Part shown: positions 14,936-25,421 of the stretch, piece by piece
How the letters are laid out: each line of letters starts with the position of its first letter
Numbering within the stretch: position 1 is the stretch's first letter
Source: Opitutaceae bacterium
GTDB taxonomy: Bacteria > Verrucomicrobiota > Verrucomicrobiia > Opitutales > Opitutaceae
DNA: 64,000 nt
Assembly: GCA_003151515.1 (NCBI GenBank)
Contig: PLXS01000002.1
Location: forward strand, 1 to 64,000
Direction: 5' to 3'
Made by a program: the position numbers and the translations under genes
Notes under the pieces: model-generated
Seen by the model: only the letters and a program-made list of their open reading frames with translations
What the model was told of the DNA's origin: nothing
Databases searched by the model: none

Positions 14936-14983
<48 letters not shown>

Positions 14984-15011
<28 letters not shown>

Positions 15012-15180
15012 TTTCTGAGAGGACCCCTGGCGGCGACGCCTGGGGTCTTCTTGCGTCTAAGCGCGACAGATGGATGGGGATGCGTTAAACTGGACTTCCA
15101 GTTCGTTGCGACTGGCTGCGACTGGCAAGGACCGGCTGCGACCCGAAGATGTGTGTGAATCTGTGTGTATGTGGCGTGGG
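14984..15180. repeat. attL core plus left terminal block of tandem element 1
   Basis: Bases 14984-15014 (31 bp, the tRNA-Gly 3' end plus TTT) recur exactly at 20490-20520 and 25391-25421. Identity with the second copy is perfect for 94 bp (to 15077), and the match continues to about 15180. Inside lies a run with a 10-bp period, unit TGCGACTGGC, with TGCGAC at 15107, 15117 and 15137 and a degenerate unit at 15127. Then comes 'tgtgtgtgaatctgtgtg' (within 15148-15168), 164 bp from the core start in both copies. These look like recombinase or accessory-protein arm sites. Confidence 0.9.
15022..15051 (+). terminator. element-borne terminator behind tRNA-Gly
   Basis: Stem GACCCC (15022-15027) pairs with GGGGTC (15042-15047). 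After a T-T mismatch, GGCG pairs with CGCC around a GCGA tetraloop, and TCTTCTT follows. It ends the tRNA transcript in place of the original chromosomal terminator, which now lies behind attR at 25425. An identical copy is at 20528-20557. Confidence 0.7.
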
Positions 15181-15219
15181 CTCTAAATGGGGTCTTTTCA
15201 CTAACCGCACTATCGCCTT

Positions 15220-16014
15220 TCATCCGAAAACACCGAATCCCCGGAGAAGGCTCCAGACGCCTACACCAGCAATTGGCAAGCCAGAGAAGCGTCCGCCCTG
15301 CGCGCCAAACGGGGCCAGTTTTTCGAGGAGAACGAATACGGTGAGCGCAGCGATCCACCACAAATTCATCACGCCGCCGACAAACAGAAGCATCATGAGC
15401 GCCCAGCAGCAGCCCAGGCAGAAAAGACCATGGGCAACGCCCAGATGAAAGCCGCCTGCCACCCCGGCTCTCCAATGCCTCGTGATGAACTCGGCGGGCG
15501 AGCGGCATGACTCAAGGCAGGCGCGCTTGAAGGGCGTAAATTGAAATATACCGGCCACGATGAGAAGAGCGCCGCCGAATTTGCTGTCCTGCGCATCCAT
15601 CATCGGCGACAGAAGCAGCCACCCTGCAAGCAAACGCTGCAGCACGGTCGCAACAAGGCTGAAGACCGTCCAGACTAGGAGATAGCCGCCGGCGAACGCA
15701 TAGACGTGGGCCGGCGTTCGGGCGCCTTCGGGGCTTTTCCGAATGACGCTTGCGTACAACAGAAACGCGGGCGCGGCAGAGGGAAGCATCATGCCCGCCA
15801 TCATCACCACCCACATAGCGAAGAGCAGCACAAGATGGCTTAAGTTCCACCTTGAGGTCATCATCCAGGCCGCCGAACCCGTCATAGGGCCGTACATGTC
15901 GAACGCCATCGGCACGATCCAGACCCAACACAGGACGATAGTAACGACGAGAGCCCCGCCGATTAGCCAGCGGTCGCGGCGCAGGAGGGATTCAACAGGA
16001 GTACGGTCGTTCAC
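15220..16014 (-). CDS. DUF2182 integral membrane protein (predicted metal-binding)
   Basis: A 264-residue protein with about six transmembrane helices. It carries the DUF2182 signature 'WVVMMAGMMLPSAAP', a cytosolic 'FKRACLESCRSP' loop and 'FCLGCCWALMML', giving several Met/Cys-rich helices suited to soft-metal binding. Family members are annotated as predicted metal-binding membrane proteins of unknown role. The upstream DUF1326 gene is only 15 bp away on the same strand, a pairing seen widely, so the two probably act together, perhaps in copper or mercury handling. That role is inference. Confidence 0.85.
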   Translation of the reverse strand: MNDRTPVESLLRRDRWLIGGALVVTIVLCWVWIVPMAFDMYGPMTGSAAWMMTSRWNLSHLVLLFAMWVVMMAGMMLPSAAPAFLLYASVIRKSPEGARTPAHVYAFAGGYLLVWTVFSLVATVLQRLLAGWLLLSPMMDAQDSKFGGALLIVAGIFQFTPFKRACLESCRSPAEFITRHWRAGVAGGFHLGVAHGLFCLGCCWALMMLLFVGGVMNLWWIAALTVFVLLEKLAPFGAQGGRFSGLPIAGVGVWSLLRGFGVFG

Positions 16015-16029
16015 TACCGCGCCAAGCCG

Positions 16030-16665
16030 TCAGCGAACAACGCCGTGCGTGCTCCAATGGATGCGCGCTAAGTGGGCGTGGGTTCCGTCAAAATCGATTT
16101 CAATCTGGCCCGATGCCTTTGCGGAACCGCTGACAAAATCGCTCTCGGTAAATTCAAAGCCGGTGGGAAGAATGACGCGAATCTGGTGTTCGGCCTTTGT
16201 CATCGGATTTCGAATCGACTCGGCGCTTCCGTCGATCAAGCCGGGCACGCTGACCTTCGCTGTGCGCGCCTTCAGATCGACCGTCAATTCGATGGGCTTG
16301 AAGACCGTCGTCAGAAGCTTCGTAACCGTCGTCGAGAACACCTGCCATATTAGTGTCCCAGGCTCCGTTTCGCGACCTTGCGACACGGCCTCGAGGGCGT
16401 CCCGCTGGCTGGCATTTGCCCTTTCGTCGATGATCGACTGGAAGATGCCGTTTCCAAGATGGATCGGTCCCGGCCACGCGGCGAGAATGCCCCAGCGCAG
16501 GCCGTCGAGAGGCACGTCCTTAAAATGCCCTTTGTCGATATGAACGAACGTGTAGGCGCGGCAGTTTCCGTGAGTGGGGGCTCCATTGAATTGACACGGG
16601 CAACCCCAGATGCAGTTGCAGTTGGAGAACTCCACGCCCTTCATGGACCATTCTGCGAGTTTCAT
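16030..16665 (-). CDS. DUF1326 domain protein
   Basis: A 211-residue cytosolic protein of the DUF1326 family. The diagnostic N-terminal cluster 'FSNCNCIWGCPCQFNG' has Cys in a CxC-x4-CxC pattern and likely binds metal. The start is ATG 16665 with AAGGA eight bases upstream; an in-frame start 30 bp earlier is possible but the family begins 'MKLAEWSMKG'. It is the first gene of a two-gene operon with DUF2182. It is cargo of element 1 and less GC-rich than the backbone. Confidence 0.85.
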   Translation of the reverse strand: MKLAEWSMKGVEFSNCNCIWGCPCQFNGAPTHGNCRAYTFVHIDKGHFKDVPLDGLRWGILAAWPGPIHLGNGIFQSIIDERANASQRDALEAVSQGRETEPGTLIWQVFSTTVTKLLTTVFKPIELTVDLKARTAKVSVPGLIDGSAESIRNPMTKAEHQIRVILPTGFEFTESDFVSGSAKASGQIEIDFDGTHAHLARIHWSTHGVVR

Positions 16666-17004
16666 AGGAGGTTCCTTTAGGTTTTCGCAGGGCAATTAGA
16701 CTTATAAATGGCCATCATTAGCAAGTGGTTTAGCCCGGCTATTTCCGGTTTGGCTTATTTTGCTTCTCGCTGTGATACTGCTTTCGATCTTCTCACCGAC
16801 AGAGACCGCAACAATTGCGACAACAAGGCGGCTCGAACATCCTTTGCCGCGCACCCTACCGCAAAAGACTCTTGACGGCATTTTGGCGAAGCAGGTCGAT
16901 CGGGCGCGGTTTGACATGCGTTTGCACAACGCGGAGTACAAAGCAAATCTGTTCCTAACCGATGAAGAGCACCGTCGCCTTGTCGACGATGTCCTCGAAT
17001 TCGA
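16666..17004. other. non-coding stretch in element 1
   Basis: About 340 bp between the DUF1326 start and an IS3 fragment. It should hold the leftward promoter of the DUF1326-DUF2182 pair. Open frames here have no recognisable content; the reverse frame continuing from the IS3 fragment beyond its stop no longer resembles a transposase. Confidence 0.5.
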
Positions 17005-17130
17005 TCATGTCCGGTGGAACGTCTGCTCCGAGATGTTTTTCTCTCGGCACAGCTCCACGATGTTCTTGCCGCCGCCGGCATCCCGCAAAATGCGGATCTT
17101 TTCCTCTGTCGTGTGGCGTTTGCCTTTCAT
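17005..17130 (-). pseudogene. IS3-family transposase OrfA fragment
   Basis: A 41-codon remnant starting 'MKGKRHTTEEKIRILRDAG' and continuing '...GKNIVELCREKNISEQTFHR', then a stop. This is the N-terminal helix-turn-helix of IS3-type OrfA ('KRxxxEEQI..IL..A..G..v.elcr.hgIs..TfyrW'). The YRW motif and leucine zipper are missing and no OrfB is present, so it is dead. Confidence 0.8.
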
Positions 17131-17189
17131 GCTCCAGGGTCCTTTCAGGTTCCCCTGGCTAACACCAGCTCCGGCTCCGTTTCAGGCGG

Positions 17190-17402
17190 TCACGTCAGGA
17201 TCAAGAGTCCCACCATACGTCGGATCGCTAGCGCCGGCCGACCTTCTTCGCTGTACAGCGAAGAGAACGACTGTTCAAACGCAGTCCAATCGATCCGATG
17301 GGCTAGTCGGCACAGTTCGTGGCGCGGATCCAACTGCGCCGATAAATCCGGAAGCAGGAAGGAGCTCTGTCGGTCGGTCTTTGCGGCTAGTCTTGGTTTC
17401 AT
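17190..17402 (-). pseudogene. IS5-family transposase N-terminal fragment
   Basis: Seventy codons whose second half, 'HELCRLAHRIDWTAFEQSFS' then 'SLYSEEGRPALAIRRMVGLLIL', matches the DUF772 N-terminal domain of IS5-type transposases. The frame stops right after 'LLILT', before the DDE catalytic core, and no terminal inverted repeats are obvious. It is a truncated relic, adjacent to the IS3 fragment. Confidence 0.75.
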
Positions 17403-17748
17403 GGCTTTGTGATTTTAGTCCAGCAGCACACGTGCCTATGTCGCCGATATTCTGTTACACGCTTGATAATTTGCTGCCAAGCCGACTGCCGACTCCAGAC
17501 TCTTTCACTCTGTCGAACAAGCCGCGGAATTTCTTGGGTTAAACCATGAACAATCGCTCACGCTATCCTCGCGCCTTTCCAGCCCGACACAAAAACCCAA
17601 TCCGCCCGCCAGAGCGGCAATCGACGATATCATGTGGAATCGCCTCTTCATAAGGAGCACGACCGATTCAAAACCTGATAGGAAATGGGATACCGGAGCG
17701 ACCATCGAATTACTCTGGGCTCACGGGAATGGGGATTTCAAAAGCGGA
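17403..17748. other. mostly non-coding; tiny signal-peptide-like ORF
   Basis: About 350 bp between the IS5 relic and the SGNH gene. On the minus strand, 17505-17651 encodes 48 residues starting 'MKRRFHMISSIAALAGGL', like a signal peptide, with no recognisable mature domain. Just upstream of it, 17684-17740 is an imperfect copy of the sequence upstream of the SGNH gene (19149-19205). This small ORF may therefore be the stub of a second exported gene with the same leader region. Confidence 0.4.
17684..17740. repeat. imperfect direct repeat flanking the SGNH gene (copy 1)
   Basis: Roughly 56 bp here and at 19149-19205 align in the same orientation, sharing 'taggaaa', 'ccgga', 'tcgaattactc' and 'ctcac'. 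I estimate about 70% identity by eye. One copy lies directly upstream of the leftward SGNH gene and the other directly downstream of its stop, so the gene sits between direct repeats. Confidence 0.6.
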
Positions 17749-19134
17749 TCAATACCCCTGAATATATCCCTTGAAGCTGACGGTTTGCTGATCCGGTTGC
17801 TGGTAGGAAATCGGTTTGGGATCGAGCCACGGCACCAGCTTGTCCTTGAGCGCGAATGCAAAAAAGTGATTCCCTGCCGGTTTGTAGTGTCCGATGAAGT
17901 ATTCCTTCAGGTAGTCCTCCCAGCTCAGGTTGAACTTTTTGTAGTCCTCTAAGTGGACTTTGTTCATGTCGAAATGGTCCACCTTCTCCCTTTCCAGGTA
18001 ATCCACGATTTCCTGGTCGTAGCGAGTGCCGCTGATCCGCAGTTGATTCATCGCGCGATAGGGATCGAACAACACCACCATGAGCTTTTTGCCGTTCTTC
18101 CCCGCAAAGGCCCTGGCCTTGTCCAAAATGAACTGGGTGGCCCGCAGGGAGTACCGGTCCAAAAGCGCGGCGGCTTGTGCCTGCATGGCTGTCTTTGGGG
18201 GCCATCCGGGCAATGAACCGGGCACTGCCACCGTACTGGACATTAGACTCCAATCGAATGGGAAGCCCAAAGCTTCCGCCAATCTGGCGATCTTATCCCG
18301 GTCCAAATCCTTGATATTACCATCGCTGTAGGCTGACAACTGCACAGCCAAATCATCCTTCAGAAGATCTACCATTGCCTGCGGCTCCATCATCCGATAA
18401 AGGGATTCGGGCGTAGGCAGAAGCTGTTCCTTCTCCACCAGACTACCCAGTTCCAAGTCCATTTCAACGTTCGACCAGAAATTGGAATGAAATCCGATGC
18501 CATGCGGGTCCATTAGCTTGGACTTTTCGGATAGGAACCACGGATAGATGGCCCCCCATCGAGCCCGGAATAGACTGCGAATATGATCGTCGCCCCAGAG
18601 GTAGAGGATCAGGTATTCCGCCTTCATCTGGGTTTTCTCCTCTCGCACCATGCGCCTGTAGGCTTGATAAACACCAAACCCCCCCATGCCGAAATTCCGG
18701 ATGGGTTCGCCGAAATGCGCGGCTAAATATTCCTGCCAGGTTTCGCCATCACTCACCTGATGGCATTGGGTGAAGCTGTTGCCGTAGGTGTTGATACGGC
18801 ACTTTCTGCCTGCATAAATGAAGGATGTGCGCGCACCGTTCGCCTGTACGGTGGAAAGAGTCGAAGAGCCATCGACGCCATCGTGCTGCAGACTGTTGCC
18901 CAAAATATAGCCGACCTCGGGATCGAACTGCGCCCAACCCGGACCTTTTATAAACTGATCGATCAATTCCCGCGAAACCGCGCTTTTCTTTAGGTATTCC
19001 TCATAGGATTGGGTTGCCACAGCAGGCTTTAGATCGGCCGACGATTGCTGTGCCGCTCCTGCGATTTTGCGTGTCACTATGGCGGCAAGACCGGCAGCAA
19101 CTGTCTTAGTCAAGAATTCACGGCGGGTAGGCAT
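17749..19134 (-). CDS. Tat-exported SGNH/GDSL-like protein
   Basis: A 461-residue protein with a twin-arginine signal peptide ('RREFLTK' then a hydrophobic stretch ending near 'IAGAAQ'). The mature part shows SGNH-hydrolase blocks: 'INTYGNSFTQ' (Ser block I, near residue 115), 'RNFGMGGFGVYQ' (Gly block II), and a late 'PAGNHFFAFALKD' holding a candidate catalytic His. Block III appears as 'YLWGDDHI', lacking the usual Asn. It probably acts on esters or acyl groups of an extracellular substrate. It is unaccompanied by sugar-processing genes and is cargo of element 1. Confidence 0.65.
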   Translation of the reverse strand: MPTRREFLTKTVAAGLAAIVTRKIAGAAQQSSADLKPAVATQSYEEYLKKSAVSRELIDQFIKGPGWAQFDPEVGYILGNSLQHDGVDGSSTLSTVQANGARTSFIYAGRKCRINTYGNSFTQCHQVSDGETWQEYLAAHFGEPIRNFGMGGFGVYQAYRRMVREEKTQMKAEYLILYLWGDDHIRSLFRARWGAIYPWFLSEKSKLMDPHGIGFHSNFWSNVEMDLELGSLVEKEQLLPTPESLYRMMEPQAMVDLLKDDLAVQLSAYSDGNIKDLDRDKIARLAEALGFPFDWSLMSSTVAVPGSLPGWPPKTAMQAQAAALLDRYSLRATQFILDKARAFAGKNGKKLMVVLFDPYRAMNQLRISGTRYDQEIVDYLEREKVDHFDMNKVHLEDYKKFNLSWEDYLKEYFIGHYKPAGNHFFAFALKDKLVPWLDPKPISYQQPDQQTVSFKGYIQGY

Positions 19135-19602
19135 AGGGCATCGGGGTTACTGGTAGGAAACTGGATTCCGGACGCATATTCGAATTACTCAGGCTCACAG
19201 GAACGATTTTTTGCTTATCAACCCCCCCGCCCATTTTTCGCTCGGATTGCAGGGAATAAAAGGCCAATCGCCTCATTTCCGGTAACTCGAACGCGCATTC
19301 TGTTTCAGATCTCGTTTCACACCACTGGCTTATCATATTTTTCAGTTCCGACTGGGGTAACGATCGCGGGTGTGGCGTTCGCTCATCTGCTCTGCCACTC
19401 GGTGCTCCCGTAGTCCAATTGGGAGTGGGCGACCCCATGCCTGTCCGAGTCGGTGCTTTCCCTTAGAAGCGGCCTCCAGAGTTCCCTCTGGGAGCTGCGC
19501 GGGGTGTCGCGGTTCGTTCGTGGCAGCTATTGTAGTCTATGAACATGCAACCGCCGCGAGTGACCGTTCACCTCACGGCGGTCATGATATACAAAAAGGG
19601 TA
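19135..19602. other. non-coding stretch in element 1
   Basis: About 470 bp. It contains the second copy of the direct repeat (19149-19205), directly upstream of the SGNH start, so the promoter of that gene probably lies here. The remainder shows no convincing coding content on either strand. Confidence 0.5.
19149..19205. repeat. imperfect direct repeat flanking the SGNH gene (copy 2)
   Basis: Partner of 17684-17740. It sits 15 bp upstream of the leftward ATG at 19134 and so overlaps the likely promoter and leader of the Tat-exported protein. Confidence 0.6.
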
Positions 19603-20001
19603 TTAGGCGTGCACCGCGTGTTCCTCGGGAGCCGTATGACTGTCCTTATGGCAATGTTCCGGGCCATCCGACGCGGCCTGCAGCTTCTGGCGCTGATCGG
19701 GTGTCAGGAGAGCAAGAATTTGCTCGTGGTTAGTCTTATGCTGTTTTTTCGCCTCGGTGCAACGGGCCGTTTGCGCCGTGGTTAATTGTGAAATTTTAGT
19801 CTTTTGATCGTTCGTCAGCTGCAGCGACTCAACGAGCTGCAGGGCCTCCTCGAGACGATGGACGAAGCAGGTGGGATCCGGACCGCCGGATGACGGCGTT
19901 GGGTGGGCTGCCACCACGGGCGGTGTGGTGCGCGTGGCGGGCTGGTTGGGCTTGGTGTTGGGTGAGGCGACTGGAGCGACGGGTTTTTGTGATGTGTCCA
20001 T
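19603..20001 (-). CDS. small LTxxQ-motif protein
   Basis: A 132-residue protein. A Pro/Thr-rich N-terminal third is followed by a helical region with two LTxxQ-like motifs, 'LTNDQKTKI' and 'LTPDQRQKL', and a His-rich end ('EHCHKDSHTAPEEHAVHA'). The motifs resemble the Spy/CpxP chaperone family, but no signal peptide is visible from this start; one could be encoded upstream in a frame I cannot join. The His-rich tail and the metal-type DUF1326/DUF2182 pair in the same element suggest a metal-related role, which is speculation. Confidence 0.55.
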   Translation of the reverse strand: MDTSQKPVAPVASPNTKPNQPATRTTPPVVAAHPTPSSGGPDPTCFVHRLEEALQLVESLQLTNDQKTKISQLTTAQTARCTEAKKQHKTNHEQILALLTPDQRQKLQAASDGPEHCHKDSHTAPEEHAVHA

Positions 20002-20383
20002 TTGTGGAGGATGGACCCTTCAACGCTCGCACGATATGGGGTCTTACCCGCCAACCATTCCCAGCCAGCGGAATCCGTTGTCCGAGCTGCCATGCGGCAC
20101 TTTCGCATCTGAAATGTCAGATGAGGCCAAGTTCTTTTGACTCCGCAGCGGCTCGCAGTCGAGTCGCTGCTCAACGACCCGAAGAACGACGCGCCGCTGT
20201 TTTGAGTCGGATTAGCGCGTCTCTTTAAGGACCCTGCTATGACACTCAGCCGGACCTTGCAGTCCCGGGTATCCTAGACCACCCCTTTCTGCCCACTTCT
20301 CCATAAGCTAGTCGCCTGCTTATTTTGTGCGAATTCGAGGTTCTTGGATGTGTCAATTGCCACGTGGTGGACGAATAACCTGT
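20002..20383. other. non-coding stretch before right end of element 1
   Basis: About 380 bp with no convincing gene on either strand, leading into the conserved right terminal block. It should include the promoter of the leftward LTxxQ gene. Confidence 0.5.
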
Positions 20384-20520
20384 TTGAAGTGTCTCCAGGA
20401 CCTAAAGCAGGATGTGTGTGAATCTGTGTGTTGGATGGACACAGGCTTTTCTTAGCCATTGGACTTGTTTCACTTGGAAATCCACGATGGAGAGTTCGAG
20501 CCTCTTCGCCCGCTCCATTT
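20384..20520. repeat. right terminal block of element 1 with internal att core
   Basis: These 137 bp match 25285-25421 at constant offset 4,901, with scattered differences. Shared features in order are 'aggacctaaagc', the 'tgtgtgtgaatctgtgtg' motif (within 20411-20431), 'ttggatgga', 'cttttcttag' and the exact 31-bp core (20490-20520). The motif starts 79 bp before the core in both right blocks. Confidence 0.88.
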
Positions 20521-20690
20521 CTGAGAGGACCCCTGGCGGCGACGCCTGGGGTCTTCTTGCGTCTAAGCGCGACAGATGGATGGAGATGCGTTAGCAGGGT
20601 TTTTCAGTTGGTTGCGACGGGCTGCGACTAGCAGGGACCGTCTGCGACCCAAAGATGTGTGTGAATCTGTGTGTATGTGACGTGGCGGCT
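20490..20690. repeat. left terminal block of element 2
   Basis: Copy of 14984-15180 at offset 5,506: exact for 94 bp, then high similarity to about 20686. It repeats the terminator hairpin, TGCGAC at 20613, 20623 and 20643 (10- and 20-bp spacing) and the 'tgtgtgtgaatctgtgtg' motif at 20654-20674. Its 5' part shares the core with the right block of element 1. Confidence 0.9.
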
Positions 20691-21064
20691 TTGTCGTGTG
20701 GAGCGTAAATCTACGCGATAATTCGCCTGTTCGCCGGGGCGTTTTCTCGGTCAGATGCCATACGTACAGCCGCAGGCAAAGCTATCGCGCAGGCGCGTCA
20801 GCCAGTAGTCAAAGATTGCCATGAACCACGAACAAGTAGCACTTTCAGAAACTCCGGCAGTATCGAATCCTCGGGTTTTCAAGAGAGCGGGCTCGAGGGG
20901 TCTAGTCTAGATCAACCGACCCATACGGCCTATTTGCCATGAGAAACCTCTTCATTCGAGAAATCTCCATCGACCCAGCAAAAAATCGCCCCCTAGAAAT
21001 CGCATCATAAAGCTTCCGGGTTGGTCCGGCCTGCGCATCAACCTGTTACGCCAAATGCTACGCC
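20691..21064. other. non-coding stretch upstream of sensor kinase
   Basis: About 370 bp with no credible coding frame. It presumably contains the promoter for the kinase at 21065, but I could not single out -35/-10 boxes with confidence. Confidence 0.5.
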
Positions 21065-22528
21065 ATGCGCCGACATTTTACCCAATATCTTGATCGACTG
21101 AATTATGTCTATCGGGATCGCTCGTTTTTTGTGGGCCTTAAGGCCCGGCTCCTCGCTGCCATTGCGCTTTTGTTGTTGGTGTTCATCCCGTTCAATATTG
21201 CCAAGATCATCTGGCTTCAGGGGCCCGTGATCTTCCCAAGGATAGCAGTCAGCCTGATCGTTGGAATCGCCGGTATGATCTGCCTGCGGTCCGTAATGAA
21301 GGGAAAACTAGAGAGCGCGGGCAACGGGCTCGCACTCGCGATGGTGCTAGTCGTCCAAGGGACTGTGCTGCTCGTCGGCGCCACGACCAAGGCTTTGCAG
21401 CCACTCAGTGTCGGCATTCAGGTCTTCGCATTCAATCTCGTTATCCTCCTGGTCGCGATCCTGTTCGCCTCGCGCCGTGTGGCGACGGTCGTGTTCGGCC
21501 TAATAGTGACGGGGCACGTTGGTTATTATCTGTTCATGCTCCGAAATGCCGATCTCGGCCCAACCGTTCAATATTCTGCCGACACGTTGCTGCGGGAGGG
21601 TTTGCTTGCGATGGGCTTGATTTTCTTACTTGGGATTACCCTGGTCCAAATGATAGAAGCGGCGCACGAGCGCAGCGAGGAAACGCTCCACCAATCAAAC
21701 AGCGTGAATATTAACTTAGAGCGGCTGGGACATGAAACTCATATCTTAGCGGAGCAGCGCCGCGAGCTCTTAGAGACACAGCGTGAATTCGTCTCCATGG
21801 TATCGCATGAATTTCGCACGCCACTGACGGCGATCCAAGGCGCTCAATTTCATTTGGAGAAACTGTTTCACGGGTCGGAAAGCCTGCGCGGATTTGTTGC
21901 TGAGAATGCGGAGAAGTGGCTCAATTTGCAGGCCTCTGAGCTAAAGAGGCTCAACAAAATGGTGGATCAGGTCCTCATGTTGAACCGAATCGAGCACATG
22001 ACGAGCAACGCGCCGTTGGAACTACTTTCGCCAGCCGACATTCTCGCGGAGACGGTCGCTCGATTCAATGATTCCATGGACAGCCCGCGGGTTGTGTTGC
22101 GTAACGATGTGCCGTCCGGGTTCGCGGCATCCATGGACTCAGGATTAGTGAAGGCGGCTGCCGAAAACTTGATTTCAAATGGGCTGAAATACTCCGGGTT
22201 GGATAAGCCCGTGCAGGTTCGCGTGTATACGGAACCGAATGGCTGGGCGGTCGCGGTAGTGGATCAAGGCAGGGGTATTCCACGCGAGGATCAGGCTAAG
22301 CTGTTTCAGCCCTTCTTCCGTGCCGGTAATGTCGGCGCCATACCTGGCACGGGGCTTGGACTGGCCATAGTCCAGCGTGCGGTAGACTTTCACATGGGAC
22401 ACATTGAGTTTGAGAGCAGAGAAAATGAGGGCACAAGCTTCAATCTCCACTTCCGGAGCGTTGTTGCCCAACCGCCCGTTGACGACACAGCACTTGGGCA
22501 TGGGCCTCTTATCCGCAGGGACTCATAA
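21065..22528 (+). CDS. membrane sensor histidine kinase
   Basis: A 487-residue kinase. Residues about 25-205 hold six hydrophobic helices (a membrane-embedded sensor without a large periplasmic loop), followed by a short coiled coil. The phosphoacceptor is in 'MVSHEFRTPLTAIQGAQFH' (H near 248). The ATPase domain shows N-box 'ENLISNGLKYSG', G1 'VVDQGRGI', F-box 'LFQPFFRAG' and G2 'GTGLGLAIV'. There is no response-regulator gene in the element, so it is an orphan here. Base composition is lower in GC than chromosomal kinases in the window, consistent with acquired cargo. Confidence 0.9.
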   Translation: MRRHFTQYLDRLNYVYRDRSFFVGLKARLLAAIALLLLVFIPFNIAKIIWLQGPVIFPRIAVSLIVGIAGMICLRSVMKGKLESAGNGLALAMVLVVQGTVLLVGATTKALQPLSVGIQVFAFNLVILLVAILFASRRVATVVFGLIVTGHVGYYLFMLRNADLGPTVQYSADTLLREGLLAMGLIFLLGITLVQMIEAAHERSEETLHQSNSVNINLERLGHETHILAEQRRELLETQREFVSMVSHEFRTPLTAIQGAQFHLEKLFHGSESLRGFVAENAEKWLNLQASELKRLNKMVDQVLMLNRIEHMTSNAPLELLSPADILAETVARFNDSMDSPRVVLRNDVPSGFAASMDSGLVKAAAENLISNGLKYSGLDKPVQVRVYTEPNGWAVAVVDQGRGIPREDQAKLFQPFFRAGNVGAIPGTGLGLAIVQRAVDFHMGHIEFESRENEGTSFNLHFRSVVAQPPVDDTALGHGPLIRRDS

Positions 22529-22746
22529 GGCTGTCTGCGGTTATCACTATAACCATATGCGTTCAATTCCCGCAGGATGACAGGACTGACGGCACCTGAT
22601 AATCTGTCGGGATGAACCCGACGATTACCGCGAAAGAGCCTAGGACGAAGAGAATAGCGAGAGGACTCGGTGGGGTAAAGAGGTGGTCAATGCGGCCGGA
22701 CCCGACGTAGCTGCGATAGGGTGCACTGGCGTAGCAGCCGGTCTAG

Positions 22747-23529
22747 AACCGGCGATCTGGGCTTAGACAGGTCAAGTATACCAGTCCTATTCCGTGCAGG
22801 CTTCGGTGCCTCGTTAATTCCGGCATTCTTCCCAACCTGGACTTTCACGGCCGTAAACTCAGCCACAAGCGGGCGCTTGCTGTCCACGCCATCCACAACC
22901 TCGCTGTCGCTGGTCGGGTTGGCGGCGTCGTTTCCGACAGCCGGAACACGCACGAGAACGGAGTTCGCCTTAGAAATGAAGTGTGGGATGCATTAATCAC
23001 GGCACAGTTTGCCCGAAAATGCGCGGGCAGCGAGAAGTCCCGAAAGACCACACGCTATCGGGCGACGAATCGCCTTCTTGATTTGATTCGCGATTTCAAG
23101 ACAAGGGATCTGCTCGACCGTAACCTGCCGAGAAACACAAAGCGCGAGAAGCCGACAGAGCACGCTCTCGTTCACGCACACGATGAAGCCGAAGTGCTAC
23201 CTCTTCCTGAATCTCTGAAGGAGCGGCAAGAGATTCGGAAATTGGAGAAGAGGATGGCTTTGGTAAACGAAGAGAACCTGCGGCATGAGTGGCGCGCATT
23301 TGTAATCGATTCGGACAGCGGGAAGATTGCGGAGCATTTTGAACCTAATGTCTGTTTTCGCATCGTCTACTCAAAGGAGTTGGGACGGGGCGGGCGGATG
23401 TACTCGTGGAGCGCCCTTTCCGCCCAGCAAATCCCCAAGGCAGCCGTTCGGCTTCACGCAGACGGGGCTATGGCTTCTGGTACCAATCGGGCTTCAGATT
23501 TGCGCTTCGGGACGCTTGTGGTCATCTAA
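22747..23529 (+). pseudogene. remnant of a mobile-element (replication-type) gene
   Basis: A 260-codon frame open from just after a TAG at 22744, with no ATG in its first half. Text such as 'HGRKLSHKRALAVHAIHNLA', 'VSDSRNTHENGVRLRNEVWD', 'TTRYRATNRLLDLIRDF' and 'CFRIVYSKELGRGGRMYSWS' is protein-like and recalls phage/plasmid-associated hypothetical proteins that carry an 'R(I/F).YS..(L/F)..GGR.Y' motif. After 'QQIPKA' the sequence loses this character, as after a frameshift or deletion, and stops. I read it as a truncated gene; a GTG at 22981 is the only candidate late start. The family identification is from memory and moderate at best. Confidence 0.45.
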
Positions 23530-23533
23530 GAGC

Positions 23534-23992
23534 ATGTCCATCGTTCCCGGTTTGAGAAGCCCCTATGCCAAGGTTGACCGGCTGGTCTATTTCGGCCGGA
23601 TGCTCGACAAGATCCGTTTACATGGCGCCGGAAAATTGCCGGCTGACGAGTATGTTGCCAACTTGGGCAAGGGCTTCGACAAACGCTGCTGCGGCTTCTT
23701 GAGGATCAGCTATGATGAGCTAAAGGCTCGTGTCATGGCGGGGACCGACTCAGACGTGTCGCTACTAGCCTGGGTCGAAGAGCGGGGCGGACGCAGATTG
23801 GACGAGGACTGCGAATTGTGGAATTCGTTCATGATGAAACGCGGTTTCCGCGACGAGGCGTCGTCAACACTCGCGAAGCGCATCCATGAGAGCGGCTTTG
23901 AGGGGAAACCTATCTTGACCATGTTCGATTACATCGACTTTGACGAAGGCCGCGATCCGGTAAGCGCTAGATCCTGGGAAGGGCAGCGGTAG
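23534..23992 (+). CDS. DUF5069 domain protein
   Basis: A 152-residue protein matching DUF5069 along its length: 'VPGLRSPYAKVDRLVYFGRM' at the N-terminus, 'GKGFDKRCCGFLRISYDELK' in the middle and 'TMFDYIDFDEGRDP' at the end. The family is common in Verrucomicrobiota and of unknown function; the 'LDKIRLH' and paired-Cys segments are typical. The ATG at 23534 begins the homologous region. It lies 4 bp after the decayed mobile gene and has no close downstream neighbour. Confidence 0.85.
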   Translation: MSIVPGLRSPYAKVDRLVYFGRMLDKIRLHGAGKLPADEYVANLGKGFDKRCCGFLRISYDELKARVMAGTDSDVSLLAWVEERGGRRLDEDCELWNSFMMKRGFRDEASSTLAKRIHESGFEGKPILTMFDYIDFDEGRDPVSARSWEGQR

Positions 23993-24409
23993 CGCCCGAT
24001 CGCAGGGCTGGGGCGCGGACGTGTCCCAAACCGCACCAAATTCGGCGTAACGGTGCGTCGGACCCGGTGTCCCAATTGAGGTGCAACGCGGCATCGGGGC
24101 GACGCACCGAAATTGGTATTATAGTGCATGAGCGCCCGGCCGCCCGCATTCACGCTCAAAGGGTTGTGAATGGAGCAGCTTCTTTGAAAAAAGACCTAAA
24201 CCCTGGCGGCGCTACATGGAATTAGGCGGTTTTTGGGGTAGCGACACCCCGTGGGCTTGAAATACCTTGAGGCATGCACGGAGCAGTGTTGAAGCCGGCC
24301 GTTGGGCTTCTTCGCTGCGTTCTATTGTAAGCTTCTCAGGCGGACGCACGAAATTTGCCCAGCAGATCGGCTAAAAAGATCGTGGCTCAATAATCCGCAC
24401 TCTCTTCGG
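23993..24409. other. non-coding stretch with an imperfect hairpin
   Basis: About 415 bp between DUF5069 and the S26-like gene. CGGTGCGTCG (24051-24060) and CGACGCACCG (24100-24109) are perfect inverted copies. They are extended outward by 'accaaattcgg' (from 24035) and 'aaattggt' (to about 24117). This could be a DUF5069 terminator-like structure or an IS end. No coding potential is evident. Confidence 0.5.
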
Positions 24410-24958
24410 ATGAACACTGCGATCCTCCTCACCCTCCGCCGTTGGGCTCCATCCGCGACAATGGCCCTGTCGACCGTTTTCTGGTCGGGATGCGCCAGCG
24501 ATCGTGTGGCCTATTCGCCCGCGGCCGTCGCGGCCAATTCTCCTGCGGCCCAAATTGTCGGGCCCCTAGAGTTATACCCCGTTGCGACCAAATACGTGGC
24601 TGAACACCCAGGCACCGATTTCATGGTCGGCAGCGGCGACTCGATGCGACCCCTTTACAAGGATCATACAGTGATAATCACTGAACAGTTGCCGATTTCA
24701 GGATTGAGGCCAGGAATGACGGTCGTATTCGTGGGAGACAGCGGATTCCCGGTGGCGCATGTTCTGATAAGGAAGACGACAGACGGTTGGATGGCCAAGG
24801 GAGTCAGCAATCTAAAGTGTGACGCCCGGCGGGTGAACGATGACAATTACATGACTGTCGTTGTCAGAGCCTACGAGCCCACCAGCAGCCCGTTGCTGGC
24901 CCTGATCCGGAACCAAGCGATTCACTCGAAGGACGTGGCCTTTGCCTTTAATCCTTGA
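24410..24958 (+). CDS. lipoprotein-like S24/S26-type peptidase homologue
   Basis: A 182-residue protein with an N-terminal hydrophobic segment ending 'FWSGCAS', a plausible but imperfect lipobox. The core 'MVGSGDSMRPLYKDHTVII' carries the catalytic Ser motif (GDSM) of the LexA/signal-peptidase fold. 'VAHVLIRKTTDGWMAKGVSN', followed by 'CDARRV', resembles the His-type (ER/SipW-like) signal peptidase blocks, suggesting Ser-His-Asp rather than Ser-Lys chemistry. Small size and membrane attachment fit a specialised processing protease, or a regulatory homologue. Its substrate is unknown; no obvious partner is adjacent. Confidence 0.65.
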   Translation: MNTAILLTLRRWAPSATMALSTVFWSGCASDRVAYSPAAVAANSPAAQIVGPLELYPVATKYVAEHPGTDFMVGSGDSMRPLYKDHTVIITEQLPISGLRPGMTVVFVGDSGFPVAHVLIRKTTDGWMAKGVSNLKCDARRVNDDNYMTVVVRAYEPTSSPLLALIRNQAIHSKDVAFAFNP

Positions 24959-25284
24959 CCGAAGTAGCTTACCGGAATTGACCCGGATTCATCCACAAAG
25001 AGCAGCAGCAAAAAGGTCCTCGCCCACGAAGGCGCCAATGTGAGCCTCGTCAGACAAGGAATTGAAGTCCGATTGAGGTGTTGCCGATCCTCTGACCTGA
25101 CCCCCGCCAGCTGAAGTGGTTTGAGTGGGAATCGCGGGTGGAATAGACCCCCACCCGGAGATGAAGAAGCACCACACTGAAGAGCAGATCCTAGGGATCC
25201 TGCGCGAGTCTGAATAGGGCAAGCCACTCCTGATCTGTTGCGCCAGAACAGCATCACGCTGAACACCGACTACCGATGGAAGAC
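24959..25284. other. non-coding stretch with an IS3 relic
   Basis: About 325 bp up to the conserved right block. Apart from the IS3-type orfA relic at 25161-25272 and the short 'tgacctgaccccc' segment before it, which looks like an IS3-type left end, nothing is recognisable. Confidence 0.5.
25161..25272 (+). pseudogene. IS3-family orfA relic
   Basis: ATG at 25161 encodes 'MKKHHTEEQILGILRESE' and then TAG, the classic IS3 OrfA N-terminus. After a frame change, 25226-25271 encodes 'LRQNSITLNTDYRWK', matching the 'CRxHGISxxTxYRWK' helix-turn-helix end. The middle is deleted. It is a second IS3-type relic, different from that in element 1. Confidence 0.75.
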
Positions 25285-25421
25285 TTGAAGTGCCACCAGG
25301 ACCTAAAGCCGGATGTGTGTGAATCTATGTGTTGGATGGAGAAGAGCTTTTCTTAGTCATTGAATTCTTGGTGGTTGAAAAGCCATGAGGGAGAGTTCGA
25401 GCCTCTTCGCCCGCTCCATTT
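25285..25421. repeat. right terminal block of element 2 with attR
   Basis: Counterpart of 20384-20520 at offset 4,901. The 'tgtgtgtgaatct' motif starts within 25312-25332, with one change from the others. The final 31 bp (25391-25421) are the exact tRNA-Gly core, after which all similarity to the other copies ends, defining the chromosome junction. Confidence 0.9.

Follow-up and report, generated by a model that had tools for sequence, protein, structure and literature searches.

Tandem integrase-less elements at a tRNA-Gly gene of an Opitutaceae bacterium: ends akin to those of a tyrosine integrase family and possible mobilization in trans

Background

The pseudo-SCC (staphylococcal cassette chromosome) elements of staphylococci, which lack ccr, are recombinase-free cargo islands that retain att (attachment) sites and are stacked at one site, and the Tycheposons of Prochlorococcus are cargo elements at tRNA genes, with hallmark genes that include a deep-branching tyrosine recombinase of their own. 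Here we analyze a locus that can be set beside both, in the window, namely, bases 1-64000 (64,000 nucleotides) of contig 12 in a 3.6-Mb, 42-contig genome of an Opitutaceae bacterium with a listed completeness of 92.4%. In this window, three copies of the 3' end of a tRNA-Gly gene bound two tandem elements, A (~5.5 kb) and B (~4.9 kb). Like the Tycheposons, A and B bring cargo to a tRNA gene, but they have no tyrosine recombinase of their own; from the pseudo-SCC elements they differ in that those involve serine recombinases, the orfX target and another phylum.

Two further classes of dependent elements invite comparison. In the available text of one account, the cis-mobilizable elements (CIMEs) of Streptococcus are decayed integrative and conjugative elements (ICEs) or integrative and mobilizable elements (IMEs) that keep attL and attR, have no integration or transfer genes and accrete with another element (PMC5704250). 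A and B resemble CIMEs, as presented there, in keeping both ends and three identical cores, in having no integration or transfer genes, and in being stacked (PMC5704250). They differ in that their autonomous kin, about 2-6 kb in size, have an integrase and sometimes a Rep protein, and in that one clade shows no integrase; no autonomous neighbor that could move them in cis was found in the host genome. Miniature inverted-repeat transposable elements (MITEs) and clusters of attC sites lacking integron integrases (CALINs) figure, in the portion of a second account at hand, as hitchers of transposases and integron integrases (PMC11389934). A and B would likewise contribute only the sites, with the enzyme coming from a relative (PMC11389934); in that portion, the enzymes are transposases of insertion sequences (IS) or integron integrases, whereas A and B involve a tRNA-targeting tyrosine integrase and multi-gene cargo.

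The reading that we favor, with reasonable though incomplete confidence, is that A and B are non-autonomous integrative elements whose ends are attachment arms of a family of tRNA-targeting tyrosine integrases. Because they carry the docking ends of this family and no integrase, A and B probably move, or once moved, with enzymes from other elements. What appears to be new is the link between a family of recombinase-free islands and the attachment-site layout of an integrase family identified here, together with an integrase-free clade; a literature search, aimed at this bacterial family only in small part, retrieved no publication on such elements in Opitutaceae.

Results

Two stacked elements with common ends and unrelated cargo

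The integration site and the element ends comprise the following features.

14936..15011, + strand: tRNA-Gly gene (anticodon GCC), the integration target (ARAGORN; Rfam tRNA, 67 bits)
14984..15014, + strand: att core copy 1, 31 bp, at the tRNA 3' end
15012..15179, + strand: left end of A (55.9 bits, E 9.4e-15, with a model from integrase-adjacent ends only)
about 15021-15052: element-borne terminator-like hairpin in the left end of A
about 15053-15068: conserved box in the left end of A
15110, 15120, 15130, 15140: GAC motifs at a 10-bp pitch in the left end of A, where the arm pair is also present
15148..15168, + strand: arm-type site GATGTGTGTGAATCTGTGTGT in the left end of A, with a putative binding role
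20384..20489, + strand: right end of A, with the arm GTGTGTGAATCTGTGTG at 20414-20430, 74-76 bp before the core
20490..20520, + strand: att core copy 2, at the A/B junction
20518..20685, + strand: left end of B, with the same architecture as in A (arm at 20657-20673; 53.3 bits, E 5.9e-14, independent model)
25285..25390, + strand: right end of B, with the arm GTGTGTGAATCTATGTG at 25315-25331
25391..25421, + strand: att core copy 3, followed by a terminator-like hairpin

The 31-bp tRNA-Gly end recurs at 14984, 20490 and 25391 with 0 mismatches. A repeat search extends the likeness between the elements to a left block of 196 nt (14984-15179 and 20490-20685, 92% alike), in which the first 94 positions are identical, and to a right block of 137 nt (20384-20520 and 25285-25421, 84% alike). 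That a 31-bp stretch of a tRNA 3' end should occur three times without a mismatch, together with two families of extended blocks, lies, in our judgment and without a computation, far outside what chance would give. Blastn of A against B aligns the two ends and a short arm motif and nothing else, so the cargoes are unrelated. The G+C content is 55.5% in A and in B, compared with 68.1% and 66.2% in the flanks.

No tyrosine or serine recombinase was detected in either element. In the whole genome, PF00589 has nine matches, none of them on the window contig, and PF00239 a single sub-threshold match on another contig, other serine-recombinase families not having been searched genome-wide. A Pfam scan of 19 frames in A and B detected no recombinase, integration or transfer family, an IS transposase fragment aside, and a profile of the integrase family described below found no trace in either element with all filters off. 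A hidden recombinase in A or B is rejected on these PF00589, PF00239 and filter-off searches. Neither A nor B holds a relic of an integrase or an accessory gene, or a significant relic of Rep, one frame in B matching Rep at E 0.056. The first-pass annotation of this DNA had described the exact triple repeat, common left and right blocks of about 195 and 137 bp, unrelated cargo, and the lack of a tyrosine or serine recombinase, all of which is borne out.

The 3' end of the tRNA-Gly(GCC) gene at 14936..15011 is contributed by element A, and the hairpin that follows core copy 3 may be the displaced native terminator of this gene. The stretch at core copy 3 is 83% alike, over 65 bp that include the 31-bp core, to the tRNA-Gly end in genome G007. 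None of the 20 tRNA-Gly loci fetched from relatives had a match, at the thresholds used, to the broader right flank of the window (to 40000), so that a comparison with an uninserted locus, which the annotation had also envisaged, yields this 65-bp likeness and no empty site flanked by matching sequence on both sides. The locus is a hotspot: when the left block is searched together with the tRNA end, 38 of 57 genomes have matches, mostly to the tRNA end alone, and the matches run well past it in G005 (81%), G008 (75%) and G002 (73%), which belong to the same genus as the host. A larger, different island occupies the tRNA-Gly site in G013 (L048 and L049, G013:C12:74000-94461), where an 18.8-kb interval between two copies of the tRNA-Gly end has a PF00589 match near its far end. 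The relatives were scanned for cores by fuzzy pattern, which may miss copies: the internal core on G005 contig 19 (C19), described below, escaped such a search and was recognized by direct reading of the sequence. Later core searches relied on plain mismatch counts.

A family of tRNA-targeting integrases adjoins the same kind of end

The right block also led to G005 C19, the source of our integrase query. Behind a tRNA-Pro gene, this contig has an element of ~4 kb that encodes a 445-aa integrase, Rep (a weak PF23343 match) and a 102-aa protein; beyond it lies the internal core and then an outer unit that has a window-like right end (78-80%) and contains a DUF418 gene but lacks a left end of the family type. 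Kin of this integrase are present in 74 of the 252 genomes of the host's family (E<=1e-20). The members are 400-450 aa long and target tRNA-Gly, -Pro, -Ala, -Ser and -Met, a gene for one of these tRNAs lying within the fetched stretch at 24 of the 30 integrase loci inspected. Six residues, R209, K238, H302, R305, H328 and Y338, are invariant in 13 aligned members, and we take their roles to be catalytic. At 24 of 25 loci, the named hosts are Opitutaceae, Opitutae, Opitutia or other Verrucomicrobiota, the remaining one being a distant match in Oscillospiraceae. The bounded integrase-bearing elements span 2.0-5.6 kb, or up to 6.3 kb counting one unit of G189, and the rolling-circle Rep occurs at 5 of the 20 integrase loci fetched with longer sequence, some of which end at contig ends. 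No conjugation genes were seen in these autonomous kin, and no ICE or IME kin of A and B, without a systematic search. In G189, a stacked array at tRNA-Pro(GGG) (L156, G189:C1:3104400-3119000), with cores at +6260 and +9424 after the tRNA, contains three integrase-family genes, the last one in broken pieces. A viral origin of the integrase family is unsupported, none of 23 IMG/VR pattern matches being confirmed.

The left ends of these elements and those in the window are homologous. Left ends were aligned from 19 of the 24 tRNA-associated integrase loci, the diverged L105, L108, L109, L112 and L114 being omitted. Twenty-two left ends (17 integrase-adjacent and 5 integrase-less) align over 164 columns with few gaps. 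They share an architecture that consists of a terminator-like hairpin, a box near GCGTCTAA..GCGACA, GAC-like motifs at a 10-bp pitch, and two GTG 12 bp apart. A first model of the left end includes A and B; to avoid circularity, a second one was built solely from the 17 integrase-adjacent ends. Run against the whole host genome, the second model recovers A (55.9 bits, E 9.4e-15) and B (53.3 bits, E 5.9e-14), with the next match at E 0.025, and it also matches the other integrase-less ends supplied. The G and C of the GAC motif are conserved in at least 20 of 23 integrase-adjacent ends at five places, of which the window keeps four (15110, 15120, 15130 and 15140) and deviates at 15100. Measured against the autonomous family, then, A and B have the left-end architecture, at the E values just given, and encode no integrase. 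On this comparison of sequences, the left block of A and B is the predicted attachment site of the 400-450-aa tyrosine integrase family.

At the other end, 10 of the 18 right ends examined have a GTG-n9-GTG pair 73-78 bp ahead of the core. Five of these ten belong to integrase-bearing elements, and the other five (A, B, G005, the outer unit of G005 C19, and G129) do not; the background of the strict pair is 206 in 4400 random 120-bp windows. Within a given element, the arms of the two ends correspond: they are identical in A and differ by one base in B, and an element in G036 has the arm GTGCAGTCAGTTGTG at both ends. Such matched arms at both ends of one element fit a single enzyme reading both.

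Integrase-less relatives and the clade of the window ends

A different species of the host's genus, G005, carries an element at this tRNA whose left and right ends are 81% and 76-81% similar to those in the window. Its cargo differs and includes a response regulator and a sugar transferase; no integrase was found in the ~4.65 kb of the element. This element was obtained by joining a left-end contig and a right-end contig over a 55-bp overlap, and the join is supported by the proteins past the right end, which have counterparts after the tRNA-Gly region in G002 (translations read by eye). In G008, a left end is followed by yet another cargo up to the contig end.

With stricter filters, the first model has matches in 88 of the 252 family genomes. 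From 62 rows at E<=1.2e-11, three partial ones were dropped, and the 59 kept come from 45 genomes. A family integrase lies no more than 1.3 kb from the left end in 31 of the 59 rows and does not in 28; among the latter, the integrase of one G189 row lies 3.8 kb further in, and another five rows reach a contig end in less than 1.3 kb, which leaves 22 integrase-less left ends. A second core was identified for the integrase-less elements A, B, G129 (5.2 kb), G202 (5.4 kb) and, via the contig join, G005. With filters off, the family profile detects no more than a 20-aa relic in G129 and nothing in G202; there are weak PF00589 matches without a listed position, one in G129 and two in G202. The G129 element (L161, G129:C3:378800-394000) is situated at tRNA-Gly, with a second left-end-like stretch after the distal core and, by eye, nucleotidyltransferases, an HD-type hydrolase and an ATP-grasp protein as cargo.

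In a tree of 48 left ends, those of the 59 rows available as sequence, A, B, G005 and G008 group together with support of 99/93, joined by G119, from another genus (97/94), and then by G203 and G129 (95/89). As far as read (1.2 kb in G119), a family integrase stands beside none of these seven rows, though G129 keeps its relic.

Discussion

Mobilization in trans and its alternatives

Under the mechanism that we propose, the enzyme would come from an autonomous element that shares the cell. This integrase would recognize the two terminal GTG-n9-GTG arms, with the 10-bp-phased GAC array on the left as a possible further binding site, and strand exchange within the tRNA 3' end would insert or excise the cargo. 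An inserted element would restore the tRNA 3' end and bring a new terminator, and the next one could enter at one of the recreated cores, so that stacking would follow from the recreation of the att core at each insertion. The clade of the window ends would, apparently, remain integrase-free across species while cargo is exchanged. The first-pass annotation had seen in A and B what looked like recombinase-free satellite or cargo elements mobilized in trans. Their stacking at the tRNA 3' end and their shared ends stand, whereas movement in trans finds no family integrase in the host to sustain it; the term satellite, in the phage sense, is unsupported, no PHROGs family being found in the five window proteins tried (the other cargo proteins were not run). 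The annotation's suggestions to look elsewhere for a tyrosine recombinase beside the same blocks, and to search relatives for these blocks, proved productive: the integrase family adjoins the same kind of left block, and G005 (two contigs joined) adds one more element that pairs these ends with other cargo and shows no integrase.

Several observations weigh against this scenario. No helper is in sight in the host: its genome, a 92% complete assembly, has no family integrase at E<=1e-20, and the family profile gives its PF00589 proteins no more than 41 bits, versus 639-661 for two true members. Among the diverged integrase loci omitted from the alignment, L105, L109 and L112 are unmatched by the first model at E<=1 (L108 is matched, and L114 weakly). 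The strict arm pair is missing in 8 of the 18 right ends, some of which have a related pair at another spacing or a GGACAC repeat, and the G202 right end shows no visible arm. The core copy of G005 is diverged; G119 was read 1.2 kb in only; and the relic-bearing G129 branches immediately outside the clade of five rows. Across the tree as a whole, the lack of integrase is unclustered, 89 of 500 shuffles being as low, which weakens the notion of a general clustering of integrase-less ends. Within the clade, the columns conserved next to integrases vary less than the others (p 0.046 with four members, 0.0026 with five), but this constraint is modest: without the terminator columns, the values are 0.13 and 0.012, and for A versus B alone it is not significant. 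This lower variation is, in our reading, a modest sign that the arms were kept under selection in a lineage already without an integrase, whether by loss or from the start.

In a different history, A, B and the G005 and G008 elements would be decayed, immobile remnants, that is, CIMEs by deletion, whose integrase was lost after insertion and whose ends are fossils. Integrase relics are clear at seven integrase-less loci without a nearby integrase (G141 twice, G021, G130, G066, G189a and G129), with a borderline trace at G076, so part of the wider set represents ordinary CIME-like decay by recurrent deletion. The starred branches of the tree force at least six changes in the state of integrase presence, no helper is visible in the host, and a broken transposase piece lies inside A. 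For the window elements themselves, we consider such decay the less likely history: with filters off, no relic is found in A, B, G005 or G008 (the latter read 3.1 kb in). No member of the five-row clade has an integrase, as far as read; the arms are present at both ends of A and B, whose three cores are identical; and the known cargoes (A, B, G005 and G008) differ. It is very improbable that A and B were mobilized by another tyrosine recombinase of the host genome. The nine PF00589 matches would offer candidates, but none is on the window contig, the best family-profile score among them is 41 bits, the genome has no further left end of this type, and the left-end architecture fits the integrase family identified. 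Hardly more credible is that A plus B form one composite island or an assembly product, with repeats from homologous duplication of the tRNA end. The identity of the first 94 left-block positions is what such an origin would have in its favor, but the blocks extend to 196 and 137 bp with graded divergence, their motifs are conserved across genera, and stacked copies also occur in G036, G005 C19 and G189.

For non-autonomous elements moved by the integrases of others, the best hint of a lasting lineage is the five-row, two-genus clade without a seen integrase and with differing known cargoes. Tentatively, such a lineage of integrase-free tRNA-Gly cargo elements might persist in Opitutaceae, keeping only paired arms, swapping cargo freely and spreading by means of the integrases, and perhaps also the rolling-circle Rep, that small autonomous elements encode. 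One could then conceive of it, again as a conjecture that may well fail, as the cargo-bearing counterpart of MITEs for tyrosine integrases. Recombinase-free genomic islands are easily dismissed as dead; because the ends described here are tied to an identified integrase family, the carriage of such islands in trans becomes directly testable. If true, tRNA sites would be shared docking points at which one set of enzymes moves many gene cargoes.

Cargo of the window elements

The genes and fragments between the ends of A (the first five lines) and B are as follows.

15220..16014, - strand: PF09948 (PpoB2), copper chaperone by the Pfam description (E 6e-65)
16030..16695, - strand: PF07040 (DUF1326), beside the PF09948 gene (E 4.6e-49)
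17011..17130, - strand: IS transposase fragment, 40 aa (HTH_Tnp_1, PF01527; E 2.5e-6)
17749..19134, - strand: 461-aa protein with no Pfam, NCBIfam or PHROGs family
19603..20001, - strand: 132-aa LTXXQ/Spy-like protein, under cut-offs
21065..22528, + strand: sensor histidine kinase (PF00512, PF02518)
22981..23529, + strand: 182-aa open frame, no family found
23327..23992, + strand: DUF5069 (PF16798; E 2.1e-34)
24302..24958, + strand: signal-peptidase-I-like protein, under cut-off (TIGR02228, E 3.6e-6)

The PF01527 fragment in A is a broken passenger. Two short frames, 17190-17402 (-), which has no Pfam match, and 25161-25214 (+), too short for a search, presumably resemble N-terminal pieces of IS transposases. 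At the megablast level, the 10.4 kb of A and B match no plasmid record.

Replication proteins of the autonomous elements

Rep proteins of the PF23343 type are encoded in the autonomous elements of G005 (L077, G005:C19, 2498-3499) and G036 (L038, G036:C114, 5940-7100), the G036 protein scoring over the cut-off and the G005 protein just under it. The G036 Rep has no match in phage records. The G005 Rep matches 26 small-plasmid records from Pasteurella, Klebsiella, Aeromonas, Escherichia and others. Among the matches listed (8 of 26), the identity to the plasmid proteins is 42-48% over about half the length of Rep, and the plasmids are 0.7-1.8 kb in size, one of them annotated with a 'phasyl DNA replicon protein arp'. 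Phasyl is, we assume, linked with filamentous phages. A literature search turned up no paper that names it. The tRNA-integrating kin of such minimal replicons may merit study.

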